The position numbers were made by a program, and so were the translations under genes. From Actinomyces mediterranea (lineage in GTDB: Bacteria; Actinomycetota; Actinomycetes; Actinomycetales; Actinomycetaceae), in assembly GCF_900155595.1 (NCBI RefSeq), contig NZ_FTPB01000004.1:1364001-1428000 (forward strand): a DNA stretch of 64,000 nucleotides, written 5' to 3'. Of the stretch, positions 1,602 to 19,304 are shown piece after piece. Each line of letters begins with the position of its first letter. The stretch's first letter is position 1. Under the pieces are notes generated by a model. The model did not search any database, was not told the DNA's origin, and saw only the letters and a list, made by a program, of their open reading frames with translations.

Positions 1602-1723
1602 CAGCATTCCTTGTCCGGGGTCGGCGATGATACTAGGAGGGGGCCTCAACGATGAGTGCCAGGACTTTCAGCCTAACCCCAGTATTCCTCTCAGCGCAGC
1701 CGTTCCACTCATGACGGACACTC

Positions 1724-1739
1724 CATGACAGATGTCATG
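1724..1739. promoter_or_regulatory. Palindromic candidate operator between lldP and the ABC exporter
   Basis: CATGACA-GA-TGTCATG, two perfect 7-base arms around a 2-base centre. A direct copy of CATGAC lies just upstream at 1710-1715, and a second palindrome GCCACTGGTGGC sits at 1758-1769. The sites lie 30-70 bases before the ABC exporter start. They could be bound by the NarL-type regulator encoded at 4753-5385, but that link is inference only. Confidence 0.45.
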
Positions 1740-1785
1740 TCACCCTCCATCACTGATGCCACTGGTGGCGTGACCAGCGCAAACG

Positions 1786-1791
1786 TACCGT
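1786..1791 (+). promoter_or_regulatory. -10 element of a probable leaderless transcript
   Basis: TACCGT sits exactly six bases before the ATG at 1798, and no Shine-Dalgarno sequence is present. The same TANNNT-N6-ATG spacing recurs at four other starts in this window, so transcription probably begins at or next to the start codon. Confidence 0.45.
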
Positions 1792-1797
1792 TGGCTC

Positions 1798-2703
1798 ATG
1801 ATCGATACGAACCCCGTCATTGAGGCCGTCGCGCTGACCAAAACCTTCGGTCCCACTATTGCCGTCGACTCGGTTTCCATGCGCATCGACGTCGGTGAGA
1901 TCGTTGCACTGCTGGGGAAGAACGGAGCCGGCAAGACGACGCTCATCGATATGATCCTCGGATTGCAGCGCCCTACTTCAGGGACGTCCACTCTGTTCGG
2001 GATGGAACCGCGCCGCGCCATCGCCTCGAGTCTCATCGGCGCCGTCCATCAGAGCGGCGCACTCCCCGTCGACTACACGATCCGCGAGACCCTCTCGCTG
2101 TTCGCCGCGACCCATGCCCGTCCCCTCGGCGTCGAGGCCCTGATGGAGGAGACTCGTCTGGCTCACCTCGCCCGCCGCCCCATCCGAAAACTCTCCGGCG
2201 GCGAATGCCAGCGCGTGCGACTCGCACTCGCACTCCTGCCCGATCCGAGTCTGCTCATCCTCGACGAGCCGACCGCCGGAATGGACGCGACGTCCAGGCG
2301 CGAATTCTGGGACCTCATGAAGGGCCAGGCGAAACGGGGGCGCACCATCGTCTTCGCTACCCACTATCTCGCCGAGGCAGAAGAGTTCGCGCAGCGCACG
2401 ATCATCATGAAGGACGGTGGCATCGCAGCAGACAGTCCCACATACGACTTGCGCAGCTCGTACTCGCGCCGCCGCCTGCGCATCGCCGTTCCCGATCGCG
2501 CCAGCACCGATGCCTGTAGGGAAGTGACGAGTATCAGCCTCGACGTCCAGTGTGAGCGCGTCGACGGGGGCGAGTCGATCATCGTCGTCTCGGGCGACAA
2601 TCTCGACGAGGCCGCCCGCGTACTCCTGTCCATCGACGGGGCGCACGGCCTCGAGATCAGCGCCTCCTCCCTCGAAGACGTCTTCGCCGCCCTCACCGCC
2701 TGA
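1798..2703 (+). CDS. ABC exporter ATP-binding protein (ABC-2 type)
   Basis: 301-residue cytoplasmic ATPase that should power the permease encoded directly downstream. Walker A reads GKNGAGKTT (about residues 40-48), the ABC signature is LSGGECQR, and Walker B is LLILDEPTAGMD, followed by a switch histidine in FATHYL. A C-terminal extension of about 90 residues resembles the accessory domain of drug and antibiotic exporters of the NatA/DrrA class. The ATG at 1798 has no ribosome binding site but lies six bases after a -10 like hexamer, so a leaderless start is likely. It forms a unit with the permease (21-base gap) and is followed by a sensor kinase and response regulator, the usual arrangement for envelope-stress or antimicrobial-peptide efflux. 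The substrate cannot be read from the sequence. Confidence 0.88.
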   Translation: MIDTNPVIEAVALTKTFGPTIAVDSVSMRIDVGEIVALLGKNGAGKTTLIDMILGLQRPTSGTSTLFGMEPRRAIASSLIGAVHQSGALPVDYTIRETLSLFAATHARPLGVEALMEETRLAHLARRPIRKLSGGECQRVRLALALLPDPSLLILDEPTAGMDATSRREFWDLMKGQAKRGRTIVFATHYLAEAEEFAQRTIIMKDGGIAADSPTYDLRSSYSRRRLRIAVPDRASTDACREVTSISLDVQCERVDGGESIIVVSGDNLDEAARVLLSIDGAHGLEISASSLEDVFAALTA

Positions 2704-2724
2704 CACGAGAATCGGATACCGACT

Positions 2725-3516
2725 ATGACCACTGCAATGCCATCTCCAGCCGTCGTCGTTCGCACATCCTCAGGGTGGAAGGGCTTCGGCCTCGTCGCCT
2801 GGTACTCCTTCTGGAAGCTCCTCACCAACCCCTTCTCGCTGGGTTTTGCGATCCTGCTGCCGATCTTCATGTACATGATGTTCGGCGCCGGACGGGACTA
2901 CTCGGACATTTGGACCGTCCACGCGAATGTGGCGGCGACAGTCCTGGTCAATATGACCCTCTACGGCGTCATCATCGAGACCTCCTCCATGGGGGCGAAT
3001 GTCGCACTCGAGAGGACGAGCGGCATCTCCCGCCTATACGCCCTCACCCCCTTGTCGAGTACCGCTCTCACCCTCGCCAGGGCCCTCGCCTCTATGTGCA
3101 TCGCCGCCGCCGTCATCGCGGTCACCTTCACGGTGGGGGCGCTGACGGGGGCGCGCATGGAGGGCGCAGCCTGGGCCTCGGTATGTGCGATCCTCCTCGT
3201 CACCTCCGTCATGCCTGCGACGATCGGCCTGGCCATCGCCTTCGCAGTCAGATCCGATGGGGCCTTCGCCGCATCCAGCGCCGTCACCGTCCTCTCCTCA
3301 TTCGCTGCTGGAATGTTCATCCCCATCGAGCAGATGGGGCAATTCTGGGCGCGCCTGGCCCCGTGGACGCCGTTCTACGGGATCAGTCAGATCGCCCAAT
3401 GCCCCCTATACGGGTGGGAAGCCTTCAAATGGTCGTGGATCGCCTCCATCGCCGTGTGGACCGCCCTCTTCGGACTCCTCGCCGTGTGGGCGCAGCAACG
3501 CGACACTGCCCGGTGA
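2725..3516 (+). CDS. ABC-2 type permease
   Basis: 263-residue membrane protein with six predicted hydrophobic segments, of the ABC-2 (drug/lipid export) permease type, for example the stretches around residues 35-50, 70-90, 120-145, 150-175, 180-200 and 235-255. It begins 21 bases after the ATPase stop, so the two proteins should form one transporter. Residues such as LERTSGISRLYALTPLS match the cytoplasmic coupling segment common in this family (typically ERE/E-RxxG followed by a short helix). The two-component system that follows at 3611 probably responds to the same stress or controls this exporter. No substrate can be assigned. Confidence 0.85.
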   Translation: MTTAMPSPAVVVRTSSGWKGFGLVAWYSFWKLLTNPFSLGFAILLPIFMYMMFGAGRDYSDIWTVHANVAATVLVNMTLYGVIIETSSMGANVALERTSGISRLYALTPLSSTALTLARALASMCIAAAVIAVTFTVGALTGARMEGAAWASVCAILLVTSVMPATIGLAIAFAVRSDGAFAASSAVTVLSSFAAGMFIPIEQMGQFWARLAPWTPFYGISQIAQCPLYGWEAFKWSWIASIAVWTALFGLLAVWAQQRDTAR

Positions 3517-3610
3517 CGAGGTCGCAGGAGAGCACGAATACTCGGCCCGGGCGCCGCATTGAGTGCCTCCGGAACGACTAGTCTCACAGGAGACGGAGGA
3601 GGAGAAGCGA

Positions 3611-4756
3611 ATGACCCCCGACCACTATTCGGCGGGCGCCAACGGGTGGCGTGATCGCGTCGAGCGGCACCCCCGGCTCTTCTCCCTGTTGTGGGCGGTG
3701 CCGTTCATGGTGTTCCTCGCCTTCCCCATTGCGGAGGCGCTCTCTGAGGGCATCGAGACGCGGACGGGTGCGCTCATCCTGGCGGAGGCGATCGCCCTCG
3801 GCGCCGCCTACCTCGCCGTCTGGCTGCTCAACGACCCGGCGCCGACCTGCCAGAAGATCACGCCCGCACTGGCCTCCACCCTGGGCGCCCTCGTCCTCAT
3901 CCAGATCATCATGGCGATTACCATCGCCCGCACTGGAGGAGCGGGCGGGGTGTACATGCTCAGCTACGTCGCGGCTCCGATGGCGCTTCTCGCACCGAGG
4001 CGATGGCTCCCGGCGGGTATGGGAGCTCTCGCGGCACTCGTCGGCATCGAGACTTTCATCTGGCCGAGGGAGGGAGTATTCCCTTTCTTGACGATCCTCA
4101 TGGCGAGCGCCGTATGCCTCCTCGCGCGCACGAGTATCGACCGGGAGCGCCTCGACAAGGTGAAGGCCGCCCAGGAACTCGCCCTCTCCCAGGAGAGGGA
4201 GCGCAGCAGGATCAGTGCAGACCTCCACGACATCCTCGGGCAGACGCTCACGGGGATCACTGTGAAAGCCGATTTGGCCGGGCGTCTCCTCGACACCGGT
4301 AGGATCAATGACGCCCGCGCCCAGATCGACGATCTGATGGAAATGTCGCGCCAGGCTCTGACCGATGTGCGCGCCGTGGTGAGCGCGAATCGTACTCTCC
4401 TAGTGGATGCGGAGATCGAGTCCGCCGCGCAACTCCTCGCCGCGGCGGGAGTCCTCCTCGAGGTGCGCCGCGATGCCGAACCCGCCCCCGGTGCCACTTC
4501 GACGCTCATCGCACACGCCATTCGGGAGGGCTGTGCGAATGCGCTCCACCACGCGCGCCCGAGTCGCGTCATCATCACTGTGGGCGCTCACGGAGTGAGG
4601 ATCGTCAATGATGGCGTGAGGGGGAGTCGGACGACGTTGACGCCGCAGCGTCCGGGCAATGGCCTTGAGGGGCTGCGCGAACGCGTTGGCGACCGCGGTC
4701 GCGTGGCGTGGAGAAGCGAGGGGGATGAATGGATCCTCGATATGGAGGCGGTATGA
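3611..4756 (+). CDS. Sensor histidine kinase (NarL/DesK type, HisKA_3)
   Basis: 381-residue membrane sensor kinase. The N-terminal half carries about five or six hydrophobic helices and no large extracytoplasmic domain, as in DesK/LiaS-type intramembrane sensors. The phosphoacceptor box is ERSRISADLHDILGQTLTG with His206. The C-terminal HATPase domain shows the N-box (IREGCANALHHARPS) and a G-box (NGLEGLRERV). A GTG at 3563 would add 16 residues, but the ATG at 3611 has a strong GGAGGAGGAG ribosome site just upstream and is preferred. The stop overlaps the start of the response regulator by four bases (ATGA), so the pair is translationally coupled. The signal is unknown. Confidence 0.88.
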   Translation: MTPDHYSAGANGWRDRVERHPRLFSLLWAVPFMVFLAFPIAEALSEGIETRTGALILAEAIALGAAYLAVWLLNDPAPTCQKITPALASTLGALVLIQIIMAITIARTGGAGGVYMLSYVAAPMALLAPRRWLPAGMGALAALVGIETFIWPREGVFPFLTILMASAVCLLARTSIDRERLDKVKAAQELALSQERERSRISADLHDILGQTLTGITVKADLAGRLLDTGRINDARAQIDDLMEMSRQALTDVRAVVSANRTLLVDAEIESAAQLLAAAGVLLEVRRDAEPAPGATSTLIAHAIREGCANALHHARPSRVIITVGAHGVRIVNDGVRGSRTTLTPQRPGNGLEGLRERVGDRGRVAWRSEGDEWILDMEAV

Positions 4757-5385
4757 GCATCCCGGGAGGCGGTCGTCTGCGCGTCATCGTCGTCGACGAC
4801 CAGCAGATGGTGAGAGGGGCCCTGGCGACGCTGCTGTCGCTGGAAGAGGATATCGATGTCGTCGCCCAAGCGGGTAGTGGTCGCGAGGCCGTGGAGGCGA
4901 TCGCTGCGACTCCAGCGCCAATCGATGTCGTCGTCATGGATGTGGAAATGCCCGATATGGATGGGATCACCGCCTGTGAGGCGATCCGGTCCCGATTCCC
5001 CTCAGTCAGGGTCCTCATGCTCACCACTTTCGGAAGGCCCGGATACGTGCAGCGCTCTCTCGACGCCGGGGCGAGTGGCTTCATGGTGAAGGACGCCCCC
5101 TCCGAACAGCTCGCCGATGCTGTGCGCCGCGTGTGCGCCGGGCACCGGATCATCGACCCGACGCTGGCCGTCGAGACTCTTGCGCGCGGAGCCTCCCCTT
5201 TGACCGATAGGGAGGTCGATGTGCTGCGCGCGGTCGCAGAGGGGGGAACCATTGCGGATATTGCGGCGCAACTGGGTCTGGGACCGGGGACGGTGCGCAA
5301 TCATGTCTCCGCTGTGATGGCGAAGACGAATGCGAGGACGAGGGCGGAGGCGGTGCGCATCGCGACGGATGCGGGATGGCTCTGA
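4753..5385 (+). CDS. NarL/LuxR-type response regulator
   Basis: 210-residue DNA-binding response regulator, partner of the upstream kinase. The receiver domain (about residues 8-125) holds the acidic pair DD near the start, the phosphoacceptor Asp63 in VVMDVEMPDMDG and the conserved lysine in FMVKDAP. The C-terminal LuxR helix-turn-helix begins at LTDREVDVLRAVAEGGTIADIA and ends with GTVRNHVSAVMAKT. The ATG at 4753 overlaps the kinase stop as ATGA; an upstream in-frame ATG at 4729 lies inside the kinase gene and is less likely. Plausible targets are the palindromes before the ABC exporter at 1724-1769; this is inference from proximity. Confidence 0.9.
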   Translation: MSIPGGGRLRVIVVDDQQMVRGALATLLSLEEDIDVVAQAGSGREAVEAIAATPAPIDVVVMDVEMPDMDGITACEAIRSRFPSVRVLMLTTFGRPGYVQRSLDAGASGFMVKDAPSEQLADAVRRVCAGHRIIDPTLAVETLARGASPLTDREVDVLRAVAEGGTIADIAAQLGLGPGTVRNHVSAVMAKTNARTRAEAVRIATDAGWL

Positions 5386-5422
5386 GGATCCGCTGATCGG
5401 GAGCGCAGCGCTCGCAATCACA

Positions 5423-5475
5423 TTTAGGTAACGCTTATGAGGAATATTTACACCTCACATTAATTTGGTTACGCT
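5423..5475 (+). promoter_or_regulatory. Repeated GGTWACGCT motif upstream of the iron operon
   Basis: Two near-identical elements, TTTAGGTAACGCT (5423-5435) and TTTGGTTACGCT (5464-5475), lie about 40 bases apart, roughly four DNA turns, in an AT-rich patch ahead of the FTR1 gene. TTAGGTAA resembles one half of a DtxR/IdeR iron box (TTAGGTTAG...), but the second half-site is poor. They may be iron-repressor or other activator sites; the identity of the factor is not established. Confidence 0.35.
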
Positions 5476-5556
5476 GTGTATGCGTAATGCGGGGCATTGA
5501 TGAACGACGTGTCCCGCCCATCCCGAACAGCCGTAATCGCCAAGGAGTCGTACACC

Positions 5557-6816
5557 GTGAGTGGAGCCATGCCCTCGACCATCACCGGACATCGGAACCA
5601 CATCCTCCTCGCACTCCTCCTCGCACTCGTCGCAGCCCTCCTCTTCACCGCCCCTCCCGCAGCGCACGCCGACTCCCAGCCGCAGACCTGGACCGAAGTC
5701 GCAGAGGAGATGGGGCAGATCCTCGACGATGCACAGGCGACCTTCCTCGCCGGAGACGCCGAGGGCGGCAAAAACGGGGTGAACACCGCCTACTACCGCC
5801 GCTACGAGACCCTCGGCTTCGAAAAGCAAGTCTTGGCGCGCATCTCCGGAGAGAGGGTCTCGACCGTGGAGATGGAGTTCTCCCTACTCAAGAAGGCGAT
5901 GACCGACGGCGACAGCAACGCAGTCGCCGTGCATACGGCGACGCTCAAAACTTTCCTCCTCGAAGACGCCGCCACCCTCGACGGAAAGAGCGGGACGGCG
6001 AATGCGTCGACGAGCCCATGGCTGTCGGGCTTCGTGCCCTCACTGCTCGTCATCCTGCGCGAAGGCATGGAGGCGATCCTCGTCGTCGCAGCGATCCTCG
6101 CTTACCTGACCAAGACGGGGCACGCAGATAAGGAGAGGGTCGTATGGGCGGGAGCAGTCCTCGCCCTGGCGGCATCCATCGCCCTGGCAGTCGCCTTCTC
6201 AGTGTTCACGAACCTCGCCGGAGCCAACCAGGAACTCCTCGAGGGGGTCACAGCCCTCGTCGCAGTCGCCATGCTCATCTGGGTATCGAATTGGATGATC
6301 AGAGCGTCCAGCGAAAAAGGGTGGGAGCGCTACATCTCGGGCCGCACCGACGCCTCGCTGAGCCGCGGCTCCCTCATCGGACTCGCCTTCATCGCCTTCC
6401 TCGCAGTCCTGCGCGAGGGCGCAGAAACGATCCTCTTCTACGTCCCGATCATCTCCGCGGCCGATGGGGCAGTCCGGCACGTATGGATCGGACTGGGAAC
6501 GGGCGCCGTCATCCTCGTCATCGTGTACCTGCTCATCCGCTTCGCAGCGCTGCGGATCCCCCTGCGCCCCTTCTTCACCGTCACCTCGATCCTCCTGGCC
6601 GTCATGGCCATCACCTTCACGGGATCGGGAATCAAGGAACTCCAAGAGGCCGACGTCGTGTCGCTGACGCCCCTGGGCGGGTTCCCCACCATTGACCTCT
6701 TGGGGATCTATCCCCGAGTGGAGAACCTCGCCGCGCAGGCGCTGGTCCTCATCATCATCGTCGGCCTGTACTTCTGGGGCTCGTGGCGCAAGCGCCGCGC
6801 AGCCGCAGCGAAGTGA
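5557..6816 (+). CDS. FTR1-family iron permease
   Basis: About 419-residue secreted-then-membrane protein of the FTR1/EfeU/OFeT iron permease family. A signal-peptide-like hydrophobic stretch ending in AAHA is followed by an extracytoplasmic region of about 130 residues, then about seven membrane helices. Both family REGxE iron-binding motifs are present: LREGMEAILVV (REGME 168-172) and LREGAETILFY (REGAE 286-290). The GTG at 5557 is preceded by AAGGAG with good spacing and puts the signal peptide at the N-terminus; an ATG at 5500 is possible but adds an unlikely prefix. It is the first gene of an eight-gene operon. Partner proteins (a P19-like lipoprotein, DUF2318, FtsX/ABC) match the P19 iron system described in Campylobacter. 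Ferric/ferrous preference is not deducible. Confidence 0.9.
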   Translation: MSGAMPSTITGHRNHILLALLLALVAALLFTAPPAAHADSQPQTWTEVAEEMGQILDDAQATFLAGDAEGGKNGVNTAYYRRYETLGFEKQVLARISGERVSTVEMEFSLLKKAMTDGDSNAVAVHTATLKTFLLEDAATLDGKSGTANASTSPWLSGFVPSLLVILREGMEAILVVAAILAYLTKTGHADKERVVWAGAVLALAASIALAVAFSVFTNLAGANQELLEGVTALVAVAMLIWVSNWMIRASSEKGWERYISGRTDASLSRGSLIGLAFIAFLAVLREGAETILFYVPIISAADGAVRHVWIGLGTGAVILVIVYLLIRFAALRIPLRPFFTVTSILLAVMAITFTGSGIKELQEADVVSLTPLGGFPTIDLLGIYPRVENLAAQALVLIIIVGLYFWGSWRKRRAAAAK

Positions 6817-6858
6817 CGAGTGCCGACCCCCATCCGACACTGACATGGAGAATCATTC

Positions 6859-7479
6859 ATGAAGCGCTCACTCATCCGACTCGGCGCCGCAACAGCGGCA
6901 CTCGCCCTCGTGACAGGGCTGGCCGCATGCTCCTCCGGCTCGACGTCCACCACCTCGACGAATGCCGATGCAGCGCCGTCCGCGCCCGCCCCCGGCGAAG
7001 ACGCGGGCTTCGACGAGTTCCCCCTCGGGGACGACGTCTTCTCCGGCCCCCTGAAGATCGCGGGCGTCTACTTCCAGCCCGTCGATATGGAGCCCAAGCT
7101 CCAGCTCGCCGCGTCTGAGGCGTCCATGCACATCGAAGCGGACATCTCCGCTGTCGAGGGCAATGACCTCGGATACGGCGTCGGCGACTTCATCCCCGGC
7201 CTCACCGTCGAGTACAAGTTCATCGGCAAGGACGGCTCCACGGTGCTCGAGGGGGTTTTCATGCCGATGAATGCCTCTGACGGTCCGCACTACGGGCTCA
7301 ACCTGCCCAAGCTCGACGCAGGCACCTACACCGTCCAGTTCATCGTCCATTCCCCGGAGGAGAACGGCTGGCTGCTGCACACCGATGCCGCCACCGGTGT
7401 CGGTGGCCGCTTCTGGACCGAGCCGATCGTCGCGGAGTTCACGGACTTCCAGTGGGATCCCTCCGCAGTAGAATGGTGA
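6859..7479 (+). CDS. P19/Tp34-like iron-binding lipoprotein
   Basis: 206-residue lipoprotein of the Fe2+ transport / P19 family (PF10634 type). The N-terminus carries a lipobox LAAC with Cys24 as the lipidated residue, then a short Ser/Thr/Pro-rich linker. The metal-site residues of P19 can be recognised: His91 and Glu93 in SMHIEAD, Met137, Asp141 and His144 in MPMNASDGPHYG, and His174 in LLHTDAATGVGG. These match the Cu/Fe-binding set of the Campylobacter protein. It starts 42 bases after the FTR1 stop. It should bind iron on the outer face of the membrane and hand it to the FTR1 permease. A strong hairpin follows at 7490-7521. Confidence 0.9.
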   Translation: MKRSLIRLGAATAALALVTGLAACSSGSTSTTSTNADAAPSAPAPGEDAGFDEFPLGDDVFSGPLKIAGVYFQPVDMEPKLQLAASEASMHIEADISAVEGNDLGYGVGDFIPGLTVEYKFIGKDGSTVLEGVFMPMNASDGPHYGLNLPKLDAGTYTVQFIVHSPEENGWLLHTDAATGVGGRFWTEPIVAEFTDFQWDPSAVEW

Positions 7480-7489
7480 TGCTGCGTTC

Positions 7490-7521
7490 AGGCGGGTCGA
7501 AGGGGATCCTTCGACCCGCCT
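7490..7521 (+). terminator. Strong intra-operon hairpin without U-tract
   Basis: A perfect 14-base stem (AGGCGGGTCGAAGG / CCTTCGACCCGCCT) with a GGAT loop lies 10 bases after the P19 stop and about 70 bases before the next gene. No T run follows, so it may be a partial terminator or an mRNA-stabilising structure that keeps the first two genes more abundant than the distal six. Confidence 0.6.
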
Positions 7522-7592
7522 CGTCTGCGCCATCCGCAACGGGCGGCCCCCGCTCGCGACGGTCCTGACACGGGAAGAAGAGTCTGAACACC

Positions 7593-8864
7593 ATGATCGA
7601 GCAGATGAGCGAGGTCCTCCTCACACTCCTGCTGACCTCACTCGCCGTCGGTGCCGTCACCGCCGCGATGCCGAGGCGGGGAAGGGGGAGAGCCGAGGTC
7701 GGCCTGCGGGCGCGCATCATCACGGGCGCCATCCTCTCCGGCCTCGTATCCGCGCTCATCCTCACCGTCGTCAATACCATCGCGCCCAAGGCGGTGAACC
7801 GGCAGACCGTCGCCCTATGGACGCTGCCCCCCGCGATCCTCCTCGCCATTGCCCTCATCATCCTCGCCCGCCTCCTGCGCGTATCCGCTGCACAACAGAG
7901 CGGGCGTGCGGGACTCGAGCGGGCGATGAGCGCCGCCGCATCCGCCTATATCGCACTCATCGTGTTCCGCGCAGCACCGACCGCATTCACCCAGGCCATC
8001 ATGATGTTCCCCGCGGGGGTGGAGCTATTCTCAACCGGCATGGTCCTCGCCCTCGTCGGATACGCCCTCGGATGGGTGATCGCCGCAGCACTGGGCTGGA
8101 CTTCGGCGCGGCTGTGCGCCCGCGGGACGCGGATGTGGCCACTCGTCATCATCGTCATCACCCTTGGCACGACCCACGCGCTCATGATCGTGCGGATCCT
8201 CGTCGCTCAGCGGATCCTCGTCGTATCGAACACCGTCTTCACCGCGATCTCCTGGTTCATCAACCACGAGGCGCTCTTCCCGATCCTCGCCATGGCCTGC
8301 CTCGTCGGCGTCGCCGCCAGCATCTGGTATTCGACGCGCCTCATCCCCCGTCAGGGCGACAACCCCGCGGAGTCCCGCCTCTACCGCGCACAGGTGCGCG
8401 TGTGGAAGTGGATGGCGGGAGGCGCCGCCATGGGCTATCTGTGCGGCGCGATCCTCATCACTGTCGGCGTCGCAGTCGGCAGCGCCGACGTGGAACTATC
8501 CGAACCGGAGTCGTATTCCGTTGCGGACGAGCGCATCGTCATCGATCTCAATAATATTTCCGACGGGCACCTCCACCGCTTCGCCCACACGACCTCATCA
8601 GGGGTGGAGGTGCGATTCATCGTCATCCAGAAGGCCGGATCCTCCTACGGGGTCGGCCTCGATGCGTGCGAGATCTGCGGGCCGAGCGGCTACTACGAGA
8701 AGGACGGCAAGATCATCTGCAAACTCTGTGAAGTCGCGATGAATATCGCCACGATCGGATTCAAGGGCGGGTGCAATCCGATCCCCATCGAGTACGAAGT
8801 ATCGAATGGGACCCTCACTGTGCCCCTGTCCGTCCTCGAAGACAGTGCGAGCGTCTTCGCATGA
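7593..8864 (+). CDS. DUF2318 membrane protein of the iron operon
   Basis: 423-residue membrane protein. About seven or eight hydrophobic helices fill residues 5-300; a DUF2318 domain follows, with a cluster of cysteines: Cys359 and Cys362 (CEIC), Cys376 and Cys379 (CKLC) and Cys394 in GGCNPIP. The spacing suggests a bound metal centre or Fe-S/redox site on the extracytoplasmic side. The same family is found as Cj1660 in the P19 iron locus of Campylobacter jejuni. It is placed between the P19 protein and the FtsX permeases. A role in electron transfer to iron, or in iron transfer, is inferred from context; the biochemistry of DUF2318 is not established. Confidence 0.82.
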   Translation: MIEQMSEVLLTLLLTSLAVGAVTAAMPRRGRGRAEVGLRARIITGAILSGLVSALILTVVNTIAPKAVNRQTVALWTLPPAILLAIALIILARLLRVSAAQQSGRAGLERAMSAAASAYIALIVFRAAPTAFTQAIMMFPAGVELFSTGMVLALVGYALGWVIAAALGWTSARLCARGTRMWPLVIIVITLGTTHALMIVRILVAQRILVVSNTVFTAISWFINHEALFPILAMACLVGVAASIWYSTRLIPRQGDNPAESRLYRAQVRVWKWMAGGAAMGYLCGAILITVGVAVGSADVELSEPESYSVADERIVIDLNNISDGHLHRFAHTTSSGVEVRFIVIQKAGSSYGVGLDACEICGPSGYYEKDGKIICKLCEVAMNIATIGFKGGCNPIPIEYEVSNGTLTVPLSVLEDSASVFA

Positions 8865-8916
8865 GCCGCCGACCCGCCCGCACACGCTTCCCCCACACGC
8901 CGAACGAGGACGAGTG

Positions 8917-10194
8917 ATGTTTGTCAGAATGCTGTCGGGGGCGCTCAGGCGCAGGGGCAGCCGCCAGCTCCTCATCGCCCTCACCGTCGCCCTCGGCGCC
9001 TGCGTTGCCACATCCATGCTGTCCGTCATGTTCAATGTCGGAGACAAGGTCAACCAGGAGCTCAAATCCTATGGGGCGAATATCGTCGTGCGCCCCAAAG
9101 GGGCGGCCGTCCTCGCTGACCTCTACGGCGCCGACGCCTCCTCATCGGGGCACGCCTACCTGCGAGAAGACGAATTGTCGAAGATCAAGACGATCTTCTG
9201 GACGTACAACATCCTCGATTTCGCACCCCTATTGCGCGTCGAGGCGACCGACTCTCAAGGCAGGGCGGTCCAGATCACCGGGACCTGGTTCTCCCGCCAC
9301 CTCGACCTCGACACGGGAGAGAGCGTCGACACCGGGCTGAGCAGGCTCCGCGACTGGTGGAGCATCGACGGCGACTGGGCCGACGATGACGAGGCCGACG
9401 CCGTCATGGTCGGCGCCGCCTTCGCCCGCGACCGCGGCCTCGCAGTCGGCGACACCCTCTCCCTGCATGCGCGGGGCATCGTCCGAGACGCCCGCATCGT
9501 CGCAATCTTCACCTCCGGTGACGAAGCGGACGCAGAAGTGTACGCCCCGCTCGCCCTCGCCCAAGACCTCCTCGGCGAGTCCGGCGTCGTCGGCTCCGTC
9601 GAAGTGTCCGCCCTCACGACCCCCGACAACGACCTCGCCCGCAAAGCCGCGAAGAACCCCAAATCCCTGTCCGTGTCGGAGAAAGAAGTGTGGTACTGCA
9701 CCGCCTACGTCTCCTCCATCGCCTATCAGATCGAAGAGGTGATGACGGATTCCGTGGCGCGCCCCGTGCGCCGGGTCGCCGAATCGGAGGGGACGATCCT
9801 GGAGAAGACACAACTGCTCATGCTGCTCGTCACCGCCCTCGCCCTCATGTCCTCCGCACTGGCGATCGCGAACCTCGTGACGGCGAATGTCATGGAGCGA
9901 TCCGCCGAAATCGGCCTCATGAAAGCAGTCGGTGCGCAGGACTCGTCGATCATCGCGCTATTCCTCGCACAGATCATCCTCGTCGGCTTGGCCGGGGGTG
10001 GCATCGGCTATGCGGGCGGACTCGTCCTCGCCCGACTCATCGGACAGATCGTCTTCTCCTCCCCGATCGAGGTCGCTCCCGTCGTCGCCGTCCTCGTCGC
10101 GCTTCTCGTCACCCTCGTCGTCCTGGGGGCTTCCATCCCCGCCATTCGCTACCTGCTGCGCCTCAATGCGGCCGAAGTACTGCACGGGAGGTGA
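8917..10194 (+). CDS. FtsX/MacB-type ABC permease of the iron operon
   Basis: 425-residue membrane protein: one N-terminal helix (about residues 17-40), a large extracytoplasmic MacB-like periplasmic-core domain (about 45-290), then three C-terminal helices of the FtsX domain (ANLVTANVMERSAEIGLMKAVGAQ marks its start). The ATG at 8917 follows an AGGA site; longer in-frame starts upstream give a non-hydrophobic prefix and are not favoured. It pairs with the next gene, a second FtsX-type permease, and with the ATPase at 11382. Such MacB-like complexes are mechanotransmitters rather than classical importers, so it may drive conformational change or extraction of a surface partner, not iron transport through itself. 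Confidence 0.85.
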   Translation: MFVRMLSGALRRRGSRQLLIALTVALGACVATSMLSVMFNVGDKVNQELKSYGANIVVRPKGAAVLADLYGADASSSGHAYLREDELSKIKTIFWTYNILDFAPLLRVEATDSQGRAVQITGTWFSRHLDLDTGESVDTGLSRLRDWWSIDGDWADDDEADAVMVGAAFARDRGLAVGDTLSLHARGIVRDARIVAIFTSGDEADAEVYAPLALAQDLLGESGVVGSVEVSALTTPDNDLARKAAKNPKSLSVSEKEVWYCTAYVSSIAYQIEEVMTDSVARPVRRVAESEGTILEKTQLLMLLVTALALMSSALAIANLVTANVMERSAEIGLMKAVGAQDSSIIALFLAQIILVGLAGGGIGYAGGLVLARLIGQIVFSSPIEVAPVVAVLVALLVTLVVLGASIPAIRYLLRLNAAEVLHGR

Positions 10195-10198
10195 CGAC

Positions 10199-11374
10199 AT
10201 GACTCGACGCTCAATGTTCTGGCGAATGGTCGTCTCATCGATCCTGCGCAGGCGCTCGCGCGTCCTCATCGCGATCCTCGCCGTCGCAATCGGAGCGACG
10301 ACCTTGTCGGGGCTCACCGCCCTCGTCATCGACGTCCCCTCGCAGATCGCTCGGGAAGTGCGCTCATACGGCGCGAACCTCGTCGTGTCGCCCGACGCGG
10401 GAGCCGATCGCCTCACCGACCCGGTCCTCGAGCGAGTGTCGGACCTTATCCCCGCTGACGCGCTCGTGGGAAGCGCATCTTTCGCCTATGAGACCGTCCT
10501 CATCAACGACCAGCCCTTCGTCGCAGCCGGGGGAGACTTCGACGCGGTGAAGACCGTCAACCCCTACTGGTACGTCGACGGGCAGTGGCCAAGCTCCGCC
10601 GGGCAGATCCTCATCGGCGAGGAGATCGCCACCACCATCGGCGCCTCGCCGGGGCACAGGATCACGGTCGCCCTGCTCGGCGAGGGCGCCCAGTCGGGCG
10701 GGGAGGAATCGCAGGGCTCGACATCCGAGCGTCCGCACAGCGCCGAGCTCACAATCGCAGGAGTCTTGAAGACCGGTGGCAATGAGGACTCCTACCTGTA
10801 CATGGGCTTCGACGACCTCGCAGAGCTCACCGATGGGGGAGCCGCCGTCTCCATCGCCGAATACTCCATCGCGCTGCACGGTGAGGAGCTGGCGGGGCTC
10901 GCACAGCGTATCAGCGACGAGGTCGACGGGGCGGTCGCGCAGACGGTTAAGCGCCTCGCCGACTCCGACACCGGAGTCATCCGCATGCTCCGCTCACTCT
11001 TGGCGATGATCACCCTCATCGTCCTGGCGCTCACCATGATCGGGGTATCCACGACAATGGTCGCCGTCGTCGCCGAGCGCCGCAATGAGATCGGCCTGCG
11101 CAAGGCACTCGGCGCGACCTCGACATCCATCGTCTGGGAGTTCATCGGCGAGGGCGCCCTCCTCGGCGCATTCGGCGGCATCGGGGGAGCAGCCCTCGGA
11201 TACGGCCTGGCCGCAGCCGTCTCCATTAACGTCTTCCACCGCGCCGCCCAGCCGCACCCCCTCGTCATCGCGCTCACGATCATCGCGTCCATCGTCGTCG
11301 CAGTGATCGCCTGCCTGCCCCCGGTGCGCCGCGCCGCCGCCATCGACCCCGCGCTCGTGCTGCGCGGAGAGTGA
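10199..11374 (+). CDS. Second FtsX/MacB-type ABC permease
   Basis: 391-residue paralogue of the preceding permease, with the same plan: an N-terminal helix (about residues 20-45), an extracytoplasmic core, then the FtsX helices beginning near STTMVAVVAERRNEIGLRKALGAT and ending in a typical RRAAAIDPALVLRGE tail. The ATG at 10199 has a strong GGAGGTG ribosome site, four bases after the previous stop. The two permeases share about the same length and fold but are clearly different sequences, so they are expected to form a heterodimer with two copies of the ATPase. The same pair occurs as Cj1661/Cj1662 in the Campylobacter P19 locus. Confidence 0.86.
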   Translation: MTRRSMFWRMVVSSILRRRSRVLIAILAVAIGATTLSGLTALVIDVPSQIAREVRSYGANLVVSPDAGADRLTDPVLERVSDLIPADALVGSASFAYETVLINDQPFVAAGGDFDAVKTVNPYWYVDGQWPSSAGQILIGEEIATTIGASPGHRITVALLGEGAQSGGEESQGSTSERPHSAELTIAGVLKTGGNEDSYLYMGFDDLAELTDGGAAVSIAEYSIALHGEELAGLAQRISDEVDGAVAQTVKRLADSDTGVIRMLRSLLAMITLIVLALTMIGVSTTMVAVVAERRNEIGLRKALGATSTSIVWEFIGEGALLGAFGGIGGAALGYGLAAAVSINVFHRAAQPHPLVIALTIIASIVVAVIACLPPVRRAAAIDPALVLRGE

Positions 11375-11381
11375 GGACACC

Positions 11382-12119
11382 ATGCCCGATAGCCCCCGAC
11401 CCACCCTCGTCGACATGTCCGGAGTCTCCAAGATCTACGGGGACCTGCACGCCCTCGACGACGTGTCACTGCAGATCCCCCAGGGGCAGTGGATGTCGAT
11501 CGTGGGCCCCTCCGGCTCCGGCAAGACGACCCTCATGAATATCGTCGGCTGCATGGACACCTCTTCGCGGGGAAGGATCATCCTCGACGGGCACGACATC
11601 AGCGACCTCACCGCCGCTCAACTCACCGAGATCCGCCGCCGCACGATCGGCCTCGTCTTCCAACAATTTCACCTTATCGGCCACCTCACGGCCCTGGAGA
11701 ACATCATGGTCGCCCAGTACTACCATTCGATGCCCGACGAGAAAGAGGCGATGGAGGCGCTCGACCGGGTCGGCCTGGCCGACCGGGCTTCCCACCTGCC
11801 GCGCCAGCTGTCGGGAGGCGAACAACAGCGCGTCTGCGTCGCCCGCGCCCTCATCAATTACCCCAAATTGGTGCTCGCCGATGAGCCGACAGGCAATCTC
11901 GACGAGACGAACGAGGGCATCGTCCTCGACCTGTTCCGCCAACTCCACAAGGAGGGGACCACTCTCATGGTCGTCACCCACGACGCCCTCGTCGCGAGCC
12001 AGGGCCAACGGGAGATCCGCCTCGACCACGGTCGCATTGTCTCCGAGGTCTTCCACGATCACGATCCGGGCGAAGCGGCGAACGCAGGCCCCGGGAAGAT
12101 GAAGGCGGCGCTGCGATGA
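11382..12119 (+). CDS. MacB/LolD-type ABC ATPase of the iron operon
   Basis: 245-residue cytoplasmic ATPase. Walker A is GPSGSGKTT, the Q-loop follows in VFQQFHLI, the signature is LSGGEQQR and Walker B is LVLADEPTGNLDE, with a switch His in VVTHD. The LADEPTGNLD form is characteristic of the MacB/LolD/FtsE subgroup, which fits the two FtsX-type permeases just upstream (seven-base gap). It energises the complex on the inner face of the membrane. Its stop overlaps the start of the FMN-binding lipoprotein gene by four bases (ATGA), tying the flavoprotein to the transporter at the level of translation. Confidence 0.92.
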   Translation: MPDSPRPTLVDMSGVSKIYGDLHALDDVSLQIPQGQWMSIVGPSGSGKTTLMNIVGCMDTSSRGRIILDGHDISDLTAAQLTEIRRRTIGLVFQQFHLIGHLTALENIMVAQYYHSMPDEKEAMEALDRVGLADRASHLPRQLSGGEQQRVCVARALINYPKLVLADEPTGNLDETNEGIVLDLFRQLHKEGTTLMVVTHDALVASQGQREIRLDHGRIVSEVFHDHDPGEAANAGPGKMKAALR

Positions 12120-12661
12120 GTGCGAGACGACTCCTGGGCGTCGGGGCACTCGGTCTGGGCGCCATGCTGGCGGCCGCCTGCTCGCCCTCCTACGACATCG
12201 ACATGACCAGGCCCATGGCGGATGGCGAATGGACGGGTCGCTCCAACCCGGACGACCAGGGCGCCGTCGGCACCATCACGATCACGGTGTCCGGCGGGGA
12301 CATCACGAATACGGTTTACGAGACGGCGCAGGCGGATGGGCGGGACAAGGACGCCGACTACGGGAAGAACTCCGCGGGGGAGGTCTTCAATGAGGAGTAT
12401 TATGCCAGGGCGCAGGCGGCAGTGGAGTCCTTCGAGGAGTACTCCCGGCGACTGACGGAAACGGACGACCCGAATGCGGTCGACGTGATCTCCGGTGCGA
12501 CCGTCGCGCACTCCCAGTTCATGCAGGCCGCGATCCGTGCCATTTCCGCAGCCCAGGGGGTTGACAATGATGCTGCGGCAAACCGGGTCGACATCCCCGG
12601 ACTGTCCGACTCGATGCGGGATGAGGGGTTGGACAAGGACCTCGGCGGGGCGGATCGGTGA
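12116..12661 (+). CDS. FMN-binding lipoprotein with flavinylation motif
   Basis: 181-residue surface lipoprotein. The signal peptide ends in a lipobox with Cys22. The remainder is an FMN_bind domain (PF04205 type), with the strand GTITITVSGGDITNTVY and the C-terminal motif DVISGAT (residues 123-129). In this family the Thr of S-G-A-T is the residue that receives FMN through a phosphoester bond, put there by ApbE. The ApbE gene directly overlaps this gene's stop (GTGA). Context says it is an electron carrier on the outer face of the membrane serving the iron system, for example reducing ferric iron held by the P19 lipoprotein. The electron donor is not in the operon, unless it is the DUF2318 protein. 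Confidence 0.86.
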   Translation: MSARRLLGVGALGLGAMLAAACSPSYDIDMTRPMADGEWTGRSNPDDQGAVGTITITVSGGDITNTVYETAQADGRDKDADYGKNSAGEVFNEEYYARAQAAVESFEEYSRRLTETDDPNAVDVISGATVAHSQFMQAAIRAISAAQGVDNDAAANRVDIPGLSDSMRDEGLDKDLGGADR

Positions 12662-13734
12662 GACTCCCGTCGTCGCGCAGTGCCACGGGATGGGGCGCGA
12701 CGGTCGATTTCAGCGTCCGCGGCTTGCCGACCTGGAGGGTCTCCTTCCCCGCGATGGGCACCCGATTCGACCTCGTCGGCCACGGCGGGGACCTGCGGGC
12801 AATCACCGAGGCCGCCTGCTCCCTCGTCAACGCCCATGAGCAGCTCTGGTCCGTCTTCCGCGATTCCTCCGATGTATCGCGACTCAACGCCTCACAGGGG
12901 TGGACGGATGTCGACGCGTCGACGGATCGCCTCCTTGTCGATGCCCTCGCCCTGTCGGAGGCGACCGGCGGAGTGTTCACACCGCTCATCGGCGCCTTCG
13001 CTGCACTGCGGGAGGGTGCGGGCGGCGGGTGCGCACTCGGGTCGGGAGACCCTGCGACGCTCGCGCCGGACGAACAGGAACGGGCGAGAGCCCTCCGGGC
13101 GTGCTCGCCGTCGCGCCTCGAGCGCAATGACATCGGCCAGTGGCGCCTCATTGCGAGCAGCGACAGCGCGCACCCCAGGGTCGACCTCGGCGGAGTAGCG
13201 AAGGGGGAGACGGCGGACCGTCTGCGCGACCTCGCGGTCGACATGGGAGCCGGGGGAGTCCTCGTCTCCGCTGGAACCTCATCGCTCGCCGCATGGGGGA
13301 CGAGGACGAGCGGCGCGCCCTGGCGGATCGGATTGCGCGACACCGTCGGGGGAGCGGACGACTGGGCGGGGTCGGTGCCCCTGCGAGGAGGGGCACTGTC
13401 GACGTCCGGGATTCCAGGCGGAGCGTCCTGCCCGCCATCCCATCGGATTGTCGACCCGAGGACGGGCGCCCCGCCGGCGCCGACGCGGCACCAGGCGAGC
13501 GTCTTGTGCGCGAGCGGAGTCATGGCGGAGGTCCTGTCGACTGCGATCCTCATCGCCGGGACGGAGTGCGTCAACGAGGAGGCGCTTCGCCGGTGGGCGC
13601 ACCGTCGCGGGGTGAGCGCCGAATGGGAATGGGTCGTCATGGGCGACTCGGGCGTGCAGGCGTCGGCTGGTGCGGGCTGGACCCCGCGCACCGGTCCGAC
13701 TCATGAAGTCCGTCGAGGGGCGGCGGCCCGGTAG
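12658..13734 (+). CDS. apbE: ApbE-like FAD:protein FMN transferase
   Basis: 358-residue enzyme that should transfer FMN from FAD to the Thr of the SGAT motif in the preceding lipoprotein. Recognisable family blocks are AMGTRFD (32-38), DLGGVAKG (176-183) and HRIVDPRTG (262-270). Two parts are unusual. The block normally reading like GGDI is replaced by VSAGTSSLAAWG (203-214), and the Mg-binding segment usually like ADALATAL is AEVLSTAI (290-297). There is also no visible signal peptide or lipobox, although most ApbE proteins act outside the cytoplasm. The GTG start overlaps the upstream stop. An alternative is that flavinylation happens before export or that the true start is elsewhere. The 3' end overlaps the convergent mpg gene by 34 bases. 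Confidence 0.82.
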   Translation: MRLPSSRSATGWGATVDFSVRGLPTWRVSFPAMGTRFDLVGHGGDLRAITEAACSLVNAHEQLWSVFRDSSDVSRLNASQGWTDVDASTDRLLVDALALSEATGGVFTPLIGAFAALREGAGGGCALGSGDPATLAPDEQERARALRACSPSRLERNDIGQWRLIASSDSAHPRVDLGGVAKGETADRLRDLAVDMGAGGVLVSAGTSSLAAWGTRTSGAPWRIGLRDTVGGADDWAGSVPLRGGALSTSGIPGGASCPPSHRIVDPRTGAPPAPTRHQASVLCASGVMAEVLSTAILIAGTECVNEEALRRWAHRRGVSAEWEWVVMGDSGVQASAGAGWTPRTGPTHEVRRGAAAR

Positions 13735-14342
13735 GCGGAGACCGTCGGGTCGCCGTCGATCCAGAAGCGCCACGGGTAGGCGCCGCCGTCCCCGCCGGGG
13801 CCGGTGACGCCCGTCCTCGGGCCCCGGCGGATCATGGCCGGCGCGACCGGTTCCTCCGGCAGGGCGAGGCGGGCGCGGCCGCCTGCCTCGCCCAGCAGCG
13901 CCCCGTCGTCCTCGCGAGTCAGTCCGAGGGCGGTGCACAGCCTCGCCGGTCCTCGCGCGAGGTCGGTGTCGCGCTGGGCCCTCGGCCTGCGGGCCCTGGC
14001 CGCCTCGACCCCCCGGGTGACCTCTCCGGCGCGTAAGAGGACCGCAGAGGCCGACCCGGCGGGTCCGCATACGATGTTCGCGCAATGGTGCATGCCGTAA
14101 ATGGAGTAGACGTAGATGCGGCCCCCGGCTTCGAACATTGACGAGTTCCGGGCGGTACGCCCGCGGAAGGCGTGCGATCCGGGGTCGTGCTCGCCCAGGT
14201 AGGCCTCGACCTCGGTAAGGCGGACGGACACGGCCGTGGTCGGGCCGAGAACGCTCAGGGTTGCGCCGAGGAGGAAGGGGGCGGCTGCGAGTGCGTCGCG
14301 CTCGACGATCCCGTCCAATGAGAAGCGCGCCGTCCGAGTCAT
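13701..14342 (-). CDS. mpg: DNA-3-methyladenine glycosylase (AAG/MPG family)
   Basis: 213-residue base-excision-repair glycosylase that removes alkylated purines. The family signature is visible: RLTEVEAYLGEHDPGSHAFR (residues about 41-60, with the catalytic Glu in TEVEAY), RNSSMFEAGGRIYVYSIYGM, and the LARGPARL block. Length fits the family (180-220). The ATG at 14342 is exactly six bases downstream of TAGACT and has no Shine-Dalgarno sequence, so the message is probably leaderless. It runs convergent to apbE with a 34-base overlap of the 3' ends, which may produce antisense interference between the two transcripts. Confidence 0.93.
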   Translation of the reverse strand: MTRTARFSLDGIVERDALAAAPFLLGATLSVLGPTTAVSVRLTEVEAYLGEHDPGSHAFRGRTARNSSMFEAGGRIYVYSIYGMHHCANIVCGPAGSASAVLLRAGEVTRGVEAARARRPRAQRDTDLARGPARLCTALGLTREDDGALLGEAGGRARLALPEEPVAPAMIRRGPRTGVTGPGGDGGAYPWRFWIDGDPTVSAYRAAAPRRTS

Positions 14343-14348
14343 GAGGAG

Positions 14349-14354
14349 AGTCTA
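14349..14354 (-). promoter_or_regulatory. -10 element of leaderless mpg transcript
   Basis: Read on the minus strand this is TAGACT, then six bases (ctcctc), then the ATG of mpg at 14342. It fits the TANNNT-N6-ATG pattern found at several other starts in the window. Confidence 0.5.
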
Positions 14355-14560
14355 CCGATGCCGTTCCGCTTCCGGATACCGCGGGGCGTACGAGTCGCGG
14401 TCCAAGCGCCGCGCAGCGTATGGACGAAGGGGTGTGTCCGCCCCTGAGCGCGCGTGGTGCCGGTCCAGCGAATGGACCGGGGTCTTTACGCGAGGGGCGG
14501 CACGGAGTACGTTGTGATATGTAGTTTCAGTAACTTGCTGCACAAGACGAAGGAGTCTTT

Positions 14561-17500
14561 GTGAGTCCCTCATACGCCCCGCGAATAATGACCCGCCTGC
14601 GGCTTCTCCTAACCGCCCTCGTCAGCGCCGGACTCCTGATCCCCGGTGCCGCCGCCCCGACCGTCGCCGCCCCGACCGTCGCACCGACGACGGTGACCCT
14701 GACGAACGCCCTCACAGGCGCTTACGACGGAGACGGCGACGCCCTCGTCACCATCCCAGGCTCCCACAACCCCGCCATGGGGTGCTCGGGCGAATGGCAA
14801 CCCGAATGCGACAGGGCCGCCCTCGCCAAAGACCCCGAGACGGGCATCTACACCGCAACCTTCGACCTGCCGCGAGGCCAATGGCAGTACAAGGTCGCGA
14901 TCGGCGGGACGTGGGACGAGAGCTACGGCGCCAACGGAGTCCCCGGTGGAGACAACATCATCTACTCCCTGGACGAAGCCGGTCCCGTCACCTTCTTCTA
15001 CGACCCCGCAACCCATCGGGTGTGGAATACCGCGGACGGCCCCGTCATCACACTCCCCGGAACTCTCCAAGCGCCACTGGGCTGCACGCGAGGGGACAAC
15101 GGCGGCAATTGGGCGCCCGACTGCCTCGCACCGCTCATGGTGCCCAATGGGGACGGGACATGGACCTACTCAACGAATAAGCTGCCTATGGGCAGCTATC
15201 TCGTCAAAGTCGCCCATAACCGCTCCTGGACGGAGAACTACGGCGTCGACGGGGTCGAAGACGGTCCGAACTACTCCTTCTCTGTGACCTCCGACAAGAC
15301 AGTGACATTCACCTACACCATGGCAACGCACCTCCTCGACATCGACGTCGCCGACGCCCCCCTCATGGGAACCGGACAACAAGCCGCCTACTGGGTAGAT
15401 GCGACAACCCTCGCATGGCCGACGTCGATGCTCCCCAAAGACGTGACCGCAGATCAGGTGGTCTCAGGAGAAGCCGGTATCGGCTTCTCCCTCGTCACCG
15501 CGGGCAATGGCGGTGCGGAGATCATCGACGGAGCAGTCGCGGGAGGAGAATCGACGCCGCTGACAATTACCGCAAGCCTGCCGAAGGAGGCGACCGACCT
15601 CCGACCGAACCTCAAGGGCTACATCGGACTGCGCATCCCGGACGGCTTCGGCGCCGACGCCGTGAAGAGGGCCCTCACCGGCCAGGTTCGCGTTCTCGCC
15701 ACCGCTCACGCTGCCCCCTTCGCATTCACCGGAGTGCAGATCGCGCCCGTCCTCGACGCCCTGTACTCCGACGATGCGCGCACTGCGGAACTCGGCGTGA
15801 CGTGGACGGGGGCCGGGCCCTCCTTCGCGCTGTGGGCGCCGACCGCGAAGAGTGTGACGCTGCTGAGTTGGAACAGTGGCGATGACACCGGCTCCGTTCC
15901 CCAGATCAACGAGGACGCCCGCCGCACACCCGCACGCCTGGGCCCCGACGGGCGCTGGGTCGTGGACAATGCGGACGGGGCCATCACCGTGGGTGCGCAG
16001 TACCTGTGGGAGGTGGAGGTCTACGTCCCGGCGACCGGGAAGGTGGAGACGAACACCGTCACCGACCCCTATTCGATCGCCCTGACCGCCGACTCGACGA
16101 GGTCGGTCGCCATCGACCTCATGAACCCGGCGATCATGCCCGAGCAGTGGGCCCGTACCCCGTCCCCTCGGGTCCACAATGACGCCTCTCGGGCGATCTA
16201 TGAACTGCACGTCCGCGACTTCTCCGCGAAAGACGAGTCCGTGCCCGCCGCGCTGCGCGGTACCTACGGGGCATTCACCGTCTCGGACTCGACGGGCATG
16301 AGGGCGCTTGCGGAACTCGCCGAAGCGGGCATCGACACCGTTCACCTGCTGCCGACCTTCGACATCTCCACCATCCCCGAGAGACGTGCGGATCAAGCGA
16401 CTCCGACGATCCCGGATGCGGGTCCCGCGGCCGAGGACCAGCAGGCGGCGGTCGCGGCGGTCGCGGATCGAGACGCCTTCAACTGGGGATACGACCCGTT
16501 CCACTGGATGACCCCGGAGGGCTCCTATGCGGCCGACGGTCACCAGGACGGAGGGGCAAGGATCGCGGAGTTCCGCGACATGGTCGGTGCGCTGCACTCC
16601 GTCGGTCTGCAGGTCGTCCTCGACGAGGTCTACAACCATACGGCCGCAGCGGGGCAGGACCCCAAGGCAGTGCTCGACCGGATCGTCCCGGGCTACTACC
16701 ACCGCCTCGATGCGACCGGAGCGATCACCACCTCCACATGCTGCTCCAATATTGCGACCGAGAACCTCATGAGCGAAGACCTCATGATCGATTCCCTCGT
16801 CCTGTGGGCGCGCGCCTACCGGGTCGACGGGTTCCGCTTCGACCTCATGGGTCACCATTCCCGCGACACTATGATCCGGGCGAAGGAGGCGCTCGCCGAA
16901 CTCACCCTCGAAAAGGATGGTGTTGACGGATCGAGCCTCTACCTGTACGGCGAAGGATGGAACTTCGGCGAGGTCGCAAACAATGCCCTGTTCACGCAGG
17001 CGACCCAGGGACAGCTCGACGGCACACAGATCGGCGCATTCAACGACCGGCTGCGCGACGCAGTCCACGGTGGCGGCCCCTTCGACACGGACCACCGGGT
17101 CTTCCAGGGCTTCGGCTCCGGCGCGGTCACCGATCCCAACGGCTTGGACACGAGGGGTGCCGAGGAACAGCTCGCCGACCTCATGCACCGGACCGACCTG
17201 GTGAAACTCGGGGTGGCCGGCAATCTCAAGGATTACGCGCTGACGACTTACGACGGGAGCGTGAAACTCGGCAGCCAGATCGACTACAACTCCCTGTCCG
17301 CGGGCTATGCCTCAGATCCCGCGGAGAGCGTCAATTACGTGGATGCCCACGACAATGAGACGCTCTTCGATCTGCTGACCTACAAACTGCCCTCGTCAAC
17401 GCCGATGAGCGATCGGATCCGCATGAACACGGTGTCGCTGGCGACCGTCGCCCTCGGACAATCCCCCTCGTTCTGGGCGGCGGGCACTGAAAGGCTCCGC

Positions 17501-18559: not shown

Positions 18560-18592
18560 AGCGAGGGCGGGGCGCCGTCCTCGCCGCCCGCT

Positions 18593-19111: not shown

Positions 19112-19217
19112 GTCTTCAGGCAACCGTGCTGCGCTGTCGCCGCCGTGTGGCGGACCTATGGACGAGCTGTGACATTTCGAGGATGGGCGCCCCTCGGCGG
19201 CCGGTCCCGCGATCGTC

Positions 19218-19304
19218 CGATGGCGCCTCGATGCGGGCGCCCGCCGTCGCATGCGGCTCGCGGATCCCACGCATAAGATGGACGCATGTATCGAGGCGCC
19301 ATCG
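19218..19304. repeat. Inverted repeat upstream of rarA
   Basis: CGATGGCGCCTCGAT (19218-19232) and its exact complement ATCGAGGCGCCATCG (19290-19304), 15 bases each and 57 bases apart. A smaller palindrome GCGGGCGCCCGC lies inside at 19233-19244. The right arm overlaps the first codons of the short leader frame at 19286. Confidence 0.6.
19274..19279 (+). promoter_or_regulatory. -10 element ahead of rarA leader frame
   Basis: TAAGAT followed by six bases and then ATG at 19286, the same layout as the other leaderless starts here. It probably gives the rarA transcript, which would then begin with the short leader frame. Confidence 0.45.

Follow-up and report, generated by a model that had tools for sequence, protein, structure and literature searches.

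What would a flavin transferase and its presumed target contribute to an iron-uptake operon? The question is raised by a 64,000-nucleotide stretch of the Actinomyces mediterranea genome (assembly GCF_900155595.1, contig NZ_FTPB01000004.1, positions 1,364,001 to 1,428,000; hereafter the window), in which the open reading frame list and a Pfam search delimit an operon of the P19/Fet type: eight consecutive genes on the plus strand, at 5557-13734, in the order FTR1, P19, FtrD-like, FtsX, FtsX, ATP-binding cassette (ABC) ATPase, FMN_bind lipoprotein and ApbE. The identity of this cluster as a P19/Fet iron-uptake operon, in its flavin version, is near certain. As read from the sequence, it probably serves high-affinity iron import, in which ApbE would load flavin mononucleotide (FMN), the resulting flavoprotein would exchange electrons with the iron on P19 and the ATPase would drive the assembly. 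Many bacteria of the gut and mouth obtain iron through P19/Fet systems, and a genome whose sole FMN_bind protein and sole ApbE both lie in one operon offers a clean test of flavinylation serving iron import.

A flavin-equipped P19 operon is already in print, and the main idea of the present finding is not new. A predicted FMN-binding protein was reported as the seventh gene in Actinobacteria, Firmicutes, Spirochaetes and Synergistetes (Liu 2018, PMC6083913), and later work listed 260 P19 clusters that include a gene for an FMN-binding protein, most of them from Gram-positives, and suggested iron redox chemistry as their function (Meheust 2021, PMC8238504).

The operon and its flavin genes

The gene identities proposed in an earlier note on this DNA (FTR1, P19, DUF2318, two FtsX permeases, ATPase, FMN_bind and ApbE) were borne out by Pfam scores, with FMN_bind as a borderline case. 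The last two genes are those that concern the flavin. The FMN_bind lipoprotein gene (12116-12661, lipobox LAAAC) shares four bases with the ATPase gene (12116-12119) and four with the ApbE gene (12658-12661), which agrees with the overlapping stop and start codons already pointed out in that note. The predicted structure of the lipoprotein (predicted local distance difference test score, pLDDT, 84.7) matches the FMN_bind-type structure 3o6u (E 8.6e-6), and the protein carries the (S/T)GA(T/S) flavinylation motif as DVISGAT, the threonine of which is indeed residue 129, as had been claimed. G127-A128 is invariant in 50/50 aligned sequences, and a lipobox was found on FMN_bind proteins in 96/100 loci, taken from two overlapping locus sets.

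The ApbE flavin transferase (12658-13734; PF02424, 139.5 bits, cut-off 25.6) has 13 relatives in the Protein Data Bank (PDB), and its D176, G178, K182, G183 and T295 (DxGG..KG plus the conserved Thr) are invariant in 11/11 aligned sequences. The operon copies of ApbE and FMN_bind are the only matches to their families (E up to 0.001) in the source genome, which measures 2.40 Mb and is 99.99% complete. Taken from sequence and motif, covalent FMN attached by ApbE to Thr129 is predicted, and is likely.

Upstream of these, the FTR1-type iron permease (5557-6816; PF03239, 103.6 bits, cut-off 25.3) begins with an extracytosolic domain and carries two RExxE motifs, REGME and REGAE; at least two REGxE-type motifs are found in 33/33 relatives. 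GTG at 5557 is a possible start, TTG at 5497 and ATG at 5569 being likewise open. The P19 (FetP/FtrA) iron-binding lipoprotein (6859-7479; PF10634 Iron_transport, 169.1 bits, cut-off 21) has 18 PDB relatives, among them P19, Tp34 and FtrA, and its H91, E93, M137, H144 and H174 are invariant in 12/12 sequences. The third gene (7593-8864; PF10080, 105.5 bits, cut-off 26.3) encodes an FtrD/FetA-like membrane protein, formerly DUF2318, consisting of a multi-helix part and a conserved, extracytosolic five-cysteine domain at the C terminus; its nearest named relatives belong to Schaalia, Pauljensenia and Actinomyces species, in a list that may leave out the window's own record. Two FtsX/MacB-type ABC permeases follow, one FetB-like (8914-10194) and one FetC-like (10199-11374), both matching PF02687 and PF12704, with starts placed near 8914 (not 8806) and near 10199, and then the FetD-like ABC ATPase (11382-12119; PF00005, 120.8 bits).

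Linkage and distribution

The co-occurrence of FMN_bind, ApbE and DUF2318, suggested as a check in the earlier note, turned out to be far from rare, so that the rare linkage which the note had named as a refutation was not what the genomes showed. The family set of 151 genomes gave matches to FtrD in 34 genomes, to ApbE in 52 and to FMN_bind in 44. ApbE is present in 33/34 genomes with FtrD vs 19/117 without it (Fisher 1.0e-18), and FMN_bind, by Pfam, in 28/34 vs 16/117 (1.1e-13), both p-values being overstated because the family genomes are related. All 44 genomes with FMN_bind hold ApbE. Pfam gave no FMN_bind match for six FtrD genomes, of which five (G092, G095, G114, G120 and G134) hold the gene according to a window-based profile; in the sixth, G093, the FtrD match is sub-threshold and the operon is absent. 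FtrD, ApbE and FMN_bind are jointly absent from three genomes of the window's own genus (G132, G139 and G150).

At the level of gene order, 33 loci of relatives were fetched, of which one is cut by a contig end and one shows nothing; the operon is present in all 31 that were long enough to judge. In 28/31 the eight genes keep the order seen in the window, ApbE being the immediate downstream neighbour, and in the other three ApbE is divergent upstream and FMN_bind, by Pfam search, comes after the ATPase. The eight-gene arrangement is not due to chance. Some loci of this and of the wider set described below have peculiarities of their own: FTR1 in L033 and the second FtsX in L073 and L126 are each split over two frames, as a frameshift or an interruption would leave them, while L071 and L074, titled Sanguibacter keddieii and Xylanimonas cellulosilytica, are identical in DNA to L038 and L043 of the window's genus, and their titles look wrong.

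Beyond the family, a scan of genome contigs gave the best 80 of 537 relatives, a sample that leans to the window and omits the proteobacterial thioredoxin type. Ten of these loci are truncated, leaving 70 testable and 69 distinct (L120 and L124 have the same DNA), and 12/80 are identical to loci of the family set. FMN_bind is the seventh gene, after the ATPase, in 70/70 testable loci from several phyla. Thus, the notion of flavin parts newly added to an established P19 locus did not hold, FMN_bind being the normal seventh gene outside Proteobacteria, in agreement with the literature (Liu 2018, PMC6083913; Meheust 2021, PMC8238504).

The position of ApbE varies more. It lies directly downstream in 21/70 loci (Actinomycetaceae outside narrow Actinomyces 15/15, Propionibacteriaceae 4/4, a Bifidobacteriaceae metagenome bin 1/1, Firmicutes 1/19), divergently upstream in 12/70 (7/8 Actinomyces and 5/12 Bifidobacterium) and outside the locus in 37/70, where the flanking sequence is in many cases short; of the 35 genomes behind these 37 loci, 28 carry ApbE elsewhere. 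Moreover, two sequence types of FMN_bind can be distinguished: the window-like type and a divergent one of Bifidobacterium and Actinomyces, with 16-22% identity to the window protein (over rows identified) and a serine as the likely acceptor. The pair L120 and L124 comes from a Bifidobacterium pongonis contig with the same 11.8 kb at both ends, inverted, possibly an assembly artefact.

As regards regulation, IdeR/DtxR-like boxes scoring at least 15 of 19 against what we take to be the IdeR consensus lie upstream of FTR1 in 13/33 loci (L034, L054-L057, L060 and others) vs 0.06% of shuffles. A promoter and terminator scan gave no excess over shuffles, and an Rfam scan of window positions 1-20000 gave no match. 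Upstream, the operon is preceded by genes for an ABC exporter and for a two-component system. Downstream, an MPG DNA glycosylase gene (13701-14342, minus strand) converges with ApbE, their 3' ends sharing 34 bases (13701-13734); GC content rises to as much as 0.75 at 13-14 kb, around this junction.

The location of ApbE

Most ApbEs, though not all, carry an export signal at the N terminus, which is lacking in the window protein. A hydrophobic stretch was defined as 14 residues at a hydropathy of at least 1.6, within the open frame at most 70 residues before the catalytic domain; the maximum reached by the window ApbE is 0.32. Although the partner is a lipoprotein, such a stretch occurs in 0/64 linked ApbEs, 6/64 of which have fewer than 14 residues there, in a scan that used hydropathy only, not SignalP, and that leaves room for non-classical export of ApbE. 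About 53 of these 64 are distinct, 11 repeating DNA of the other locus set. Unlinked ApbEs of Firmicutes, Spirochaetes and others have the stretch in 18/20 cases (20 taken from 28 genomes with a match), and the actinobacterial ApbEs of those family genomes that lack FtrD have it in 2/19, one of the two being doubtful. Since these latter are mostly signal-less too, the missing signal is a trait of the lineage and not of the operon. Some ApbEs are cytosolic and have their targets in the cytosol as well (PMC12052999), and therefore the membership of the window protein in the family stands. In a Salmonella experiment covered by the same review, the periplasmic ApbE was not replaced by a cytosolic one (PMC12052999).

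An already flavinylated protein might be exported by the twin-arginine translocation (Tat) system. For the window's genus this route was considered and rejected: TatC was found in 0/9 genomes tested, that of the window included, and SecY, as positive control, was found in the window genome. TatC is also without a match in 10/11 Bifidobacterium genomes and present in most other family genomes (25/47 overall), so that the Tat route is possible in those relatives where it occurs. Close to the lipobox, 35/96 FMN_bind N-termini, the window's included, show a loosely defined RR pattern, one that also takes in residues before the likely start.

A more tentative proposal, which we regard as doubtful, is that the signal-less ApbE flavinylates the unfolded lipoprotein precursor with cytosolic flavin adenine dinucleotide (FAD), that the FMN-bearing polypeptide is exported by Sec, not Tat, and that its FMN, after export, would supply a Rieske-like centre of FtrD with cysteine ligands. 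If true, flavinylation would precede Sec export, extracytosolic FAD would no longer be needed and Sec could export a flavoprotein with its cofactor attached. A signal-less linked ApbE beside a lipoprotein, in a genus without TatC, was not found in the open-access PubMed Central (PMC) literature. The conflict raises the general question of where and when exported flavoproteins gain their cofactor in bacteria without Tat.

The five-cysteine domain of FtrD

In the predicted model of FtrD (pLDDT 94.7), the C-terminal domain (residues about 304-423, window 8500-8864) resembles Rieske proteins. The motif CxxC-x13-CxxC-x14-C is present in 64/64 FtrD sequences, all of which thus have CxxC...CxxC and a fifth Cys instead of the Rieske ligand pattern CxH...CxxH. 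The assignment of FtrD as a Rieske protein by sequence was tried and rejected: its profile gave a probability of 0.35% against 17 Rieske segments, and 34/100 column-shuffled controls equalled the score. The comparison set had comprised 30 loci; 13 in which no motif could be located were left out, and the remaining 17 include L170, which was read from a fallback frame and is unlikely to be a Rieske protein. The likeness is therefore kept only as a resemblance of predicted fold. A Rieske-like FtrD domain was not found described in the open-access PMC literature. If the domain does form a Rieske-like centre with cysteine ligands, a testable role in electron transfer could be assigned to that conserved part of Fet systems which is least understood. 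As a side observation, genome G000 has no Rieske (PF00355) match, the sole such case among 60 genomes of the class.

Proposed mechanism and alternatives

According to the proposed mechanism, ApbE would attach FMN to Thr129 of the lipoprotein, and the flavoprotein would exchange electrons with the iron on P19, the cysteine domain of FtrD probably serving as relay or partner, so that the iron presented to FTR1 is in the right redox state. The ATPase of the heteromeric FtsX-type complex would work the assembly mechanically. Electron delivery to ferric iron on P19 and a resetting of the assembly by FtsX and ATPase, as put forward in the earlier note, are candidate steps. The seventh slot appears to be a redox job open to different carriers, because Proteobacteria place the thioredoxin-like FetE/FetF there. 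That the flavin is redox-coupled to the iron of P19/FTR1 is likely. With regard to its direction, we lean, by a modest preference, to reduction, towards the iron; oxidation is given a smaller though substantial share and neither of the two a slight remainder.

PplA-type flavinylated lipoproteins usually give electrons to outside acceptors, which argues for reduction. Reduction is also the direction preferred by both Liu 2018 (PMC6083913) and Meheust 2021 (PMC8238504). The opposite possibility is that the same operon oxidises Fe2+ at P19/FTR1, with the flavoprotein removing the electrons, as in Fet3/Ftr1-type systems. This is the less probable direction, and several lines of work speak for it: FtrABCD takes only Fe2+ and is predicted to use the energy of its oxidation, and the Cu-loaded FtrA of Rubrivivax is able to oxidise Fe2+ (PMC11966278); FetE is similar to thiol oxidases, and oxidation was promoted by FetEF (PMC10783030); and the sif mutants of B. 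breve respond to chelators of ferrous but not of ferric iron (PMC5449479). The oxidase-like FetE and the Fe2+ oxidation ascribed to FtrABCD (PMC10783030, PMC11966278) are thus among the points that weigh against our reading of the operon as a whole. Others come from the genome itself. The operon encodes no transmembrane electron donor, and PF01794 and the NQR/RNF family PF03116 are absent from the genome, where two DsbD/CcdA-type matches (PF02683) lie outside the operon. The PF04205 score of the FMN_bind protein, 21.9 bits in one search and 22.8 in another, straddles the cut-off of 22. The window's best IdeR-like box reaches 11 of 19, equalled by 48% of shuffles and hence at chance level, and in 7/35 genomes whose locus has no linked ApbE none was found elsewhere, all seven being metagenome bins that may be incomplete and five of them spirochaetes.

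Two further explanations would dissociate the flavin from iron. The FMN_bind lipoprotein could be a general PplA-like protein of extracellular electron transfer that merely lies beside iron genes, in keeping with its match to the NCBIfam PplA model; this match is weak, at 40.4 bits far under the cut-off of 325, and the linkage of FMN_bind in 70/70 testable loci, along with the joint absence from three same-genus genomes, makes such a role very improbable. Nor is it at all likely that the lipoprotein goes unflavinylated, the operon ApbE having another substrate or being a relic, with enzyme and target on opposite sides of the membrane. The absent export signal and the lack of TatC in the genus would fit that situation, and against it stand the invariant catalytic residues of ApbE (11/11), the retention in the target of Thr129 and of G127-A128, the latter invariant in 50/50, and the lack of a second FMN_bind match in the genome.

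Relation to known systems

The FtrABCD system of Bordetella and Brucella resembles the operon in that FtrA corresponds to P19 and FtrC to FTR1, and its FtrD gives the Pfam family its name. It differs in possessing a cupredoxin, FtrB, and to our knowledge it has no FMN_bind, ApbE or FtsX genes. The P19 flavinylation clusters of Meheust 2021 likewise combine P19 with an FMN-binding gene; the section of that paper on P19 clusters contains no discussion of an operon ApbE, of its missing signal peptide or of the FtrD fold (PMC8238504).

The bfeUO-sifABCDE cluster of Bifidobacterium breve UCC2003 also has FTR1, the second gene, the membrane protein, two FtsX permeases, an ATPase and the FMN_bind protein SifE, and is iron-induced and needed under ferrous chelation (PMC5449479). 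In B. breve, however, apbE (Bbr_1825) lies away from the cluster (PMC5449479), and the Bifidobacterium FMN_bind has 16-21% identity to that of the window (rows identified), with a serine acceptor in 12/12 loci. The sifABCDE mutants are impaired with dipyridyl and with phenanthroline and normal with ciclopirox olamine, and the apbE::Tn5 mutant is impaired only with ferrous chelators, an effect ascribed by the authors to a role of apbE in Fe-S repair (PMC5449479). The profile shared by these mutants may instead reflect flavinylation of SifE by ApbE, a link that is ours and not the authors'.

Finally, the fetMP-fetABCDEF cluster of Campylobacter jejuni follows the same order, with FetM as FTR1, FetP as P19, FetA as DUF2318 and FetBCD as permeases plus ATPase (PMC6083913, PMC10783030), and its FetA has the CxxC-x13-CxxC-x14/15-C motif in common with the FtrD of the window. 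At low iron fetA, B, C and D are each needed, and fetE/fetF redundantly (PMC10783030). The difference lies in the redox slot, which is occupied by the thioredoxins FetE/FetF in C. jejuni and by FMN_bind plus ApbE in the window, so that three redox carriers, namely two FMN_bind types and the proteobacterial thioredoxins, would appear to fill one and the same position.

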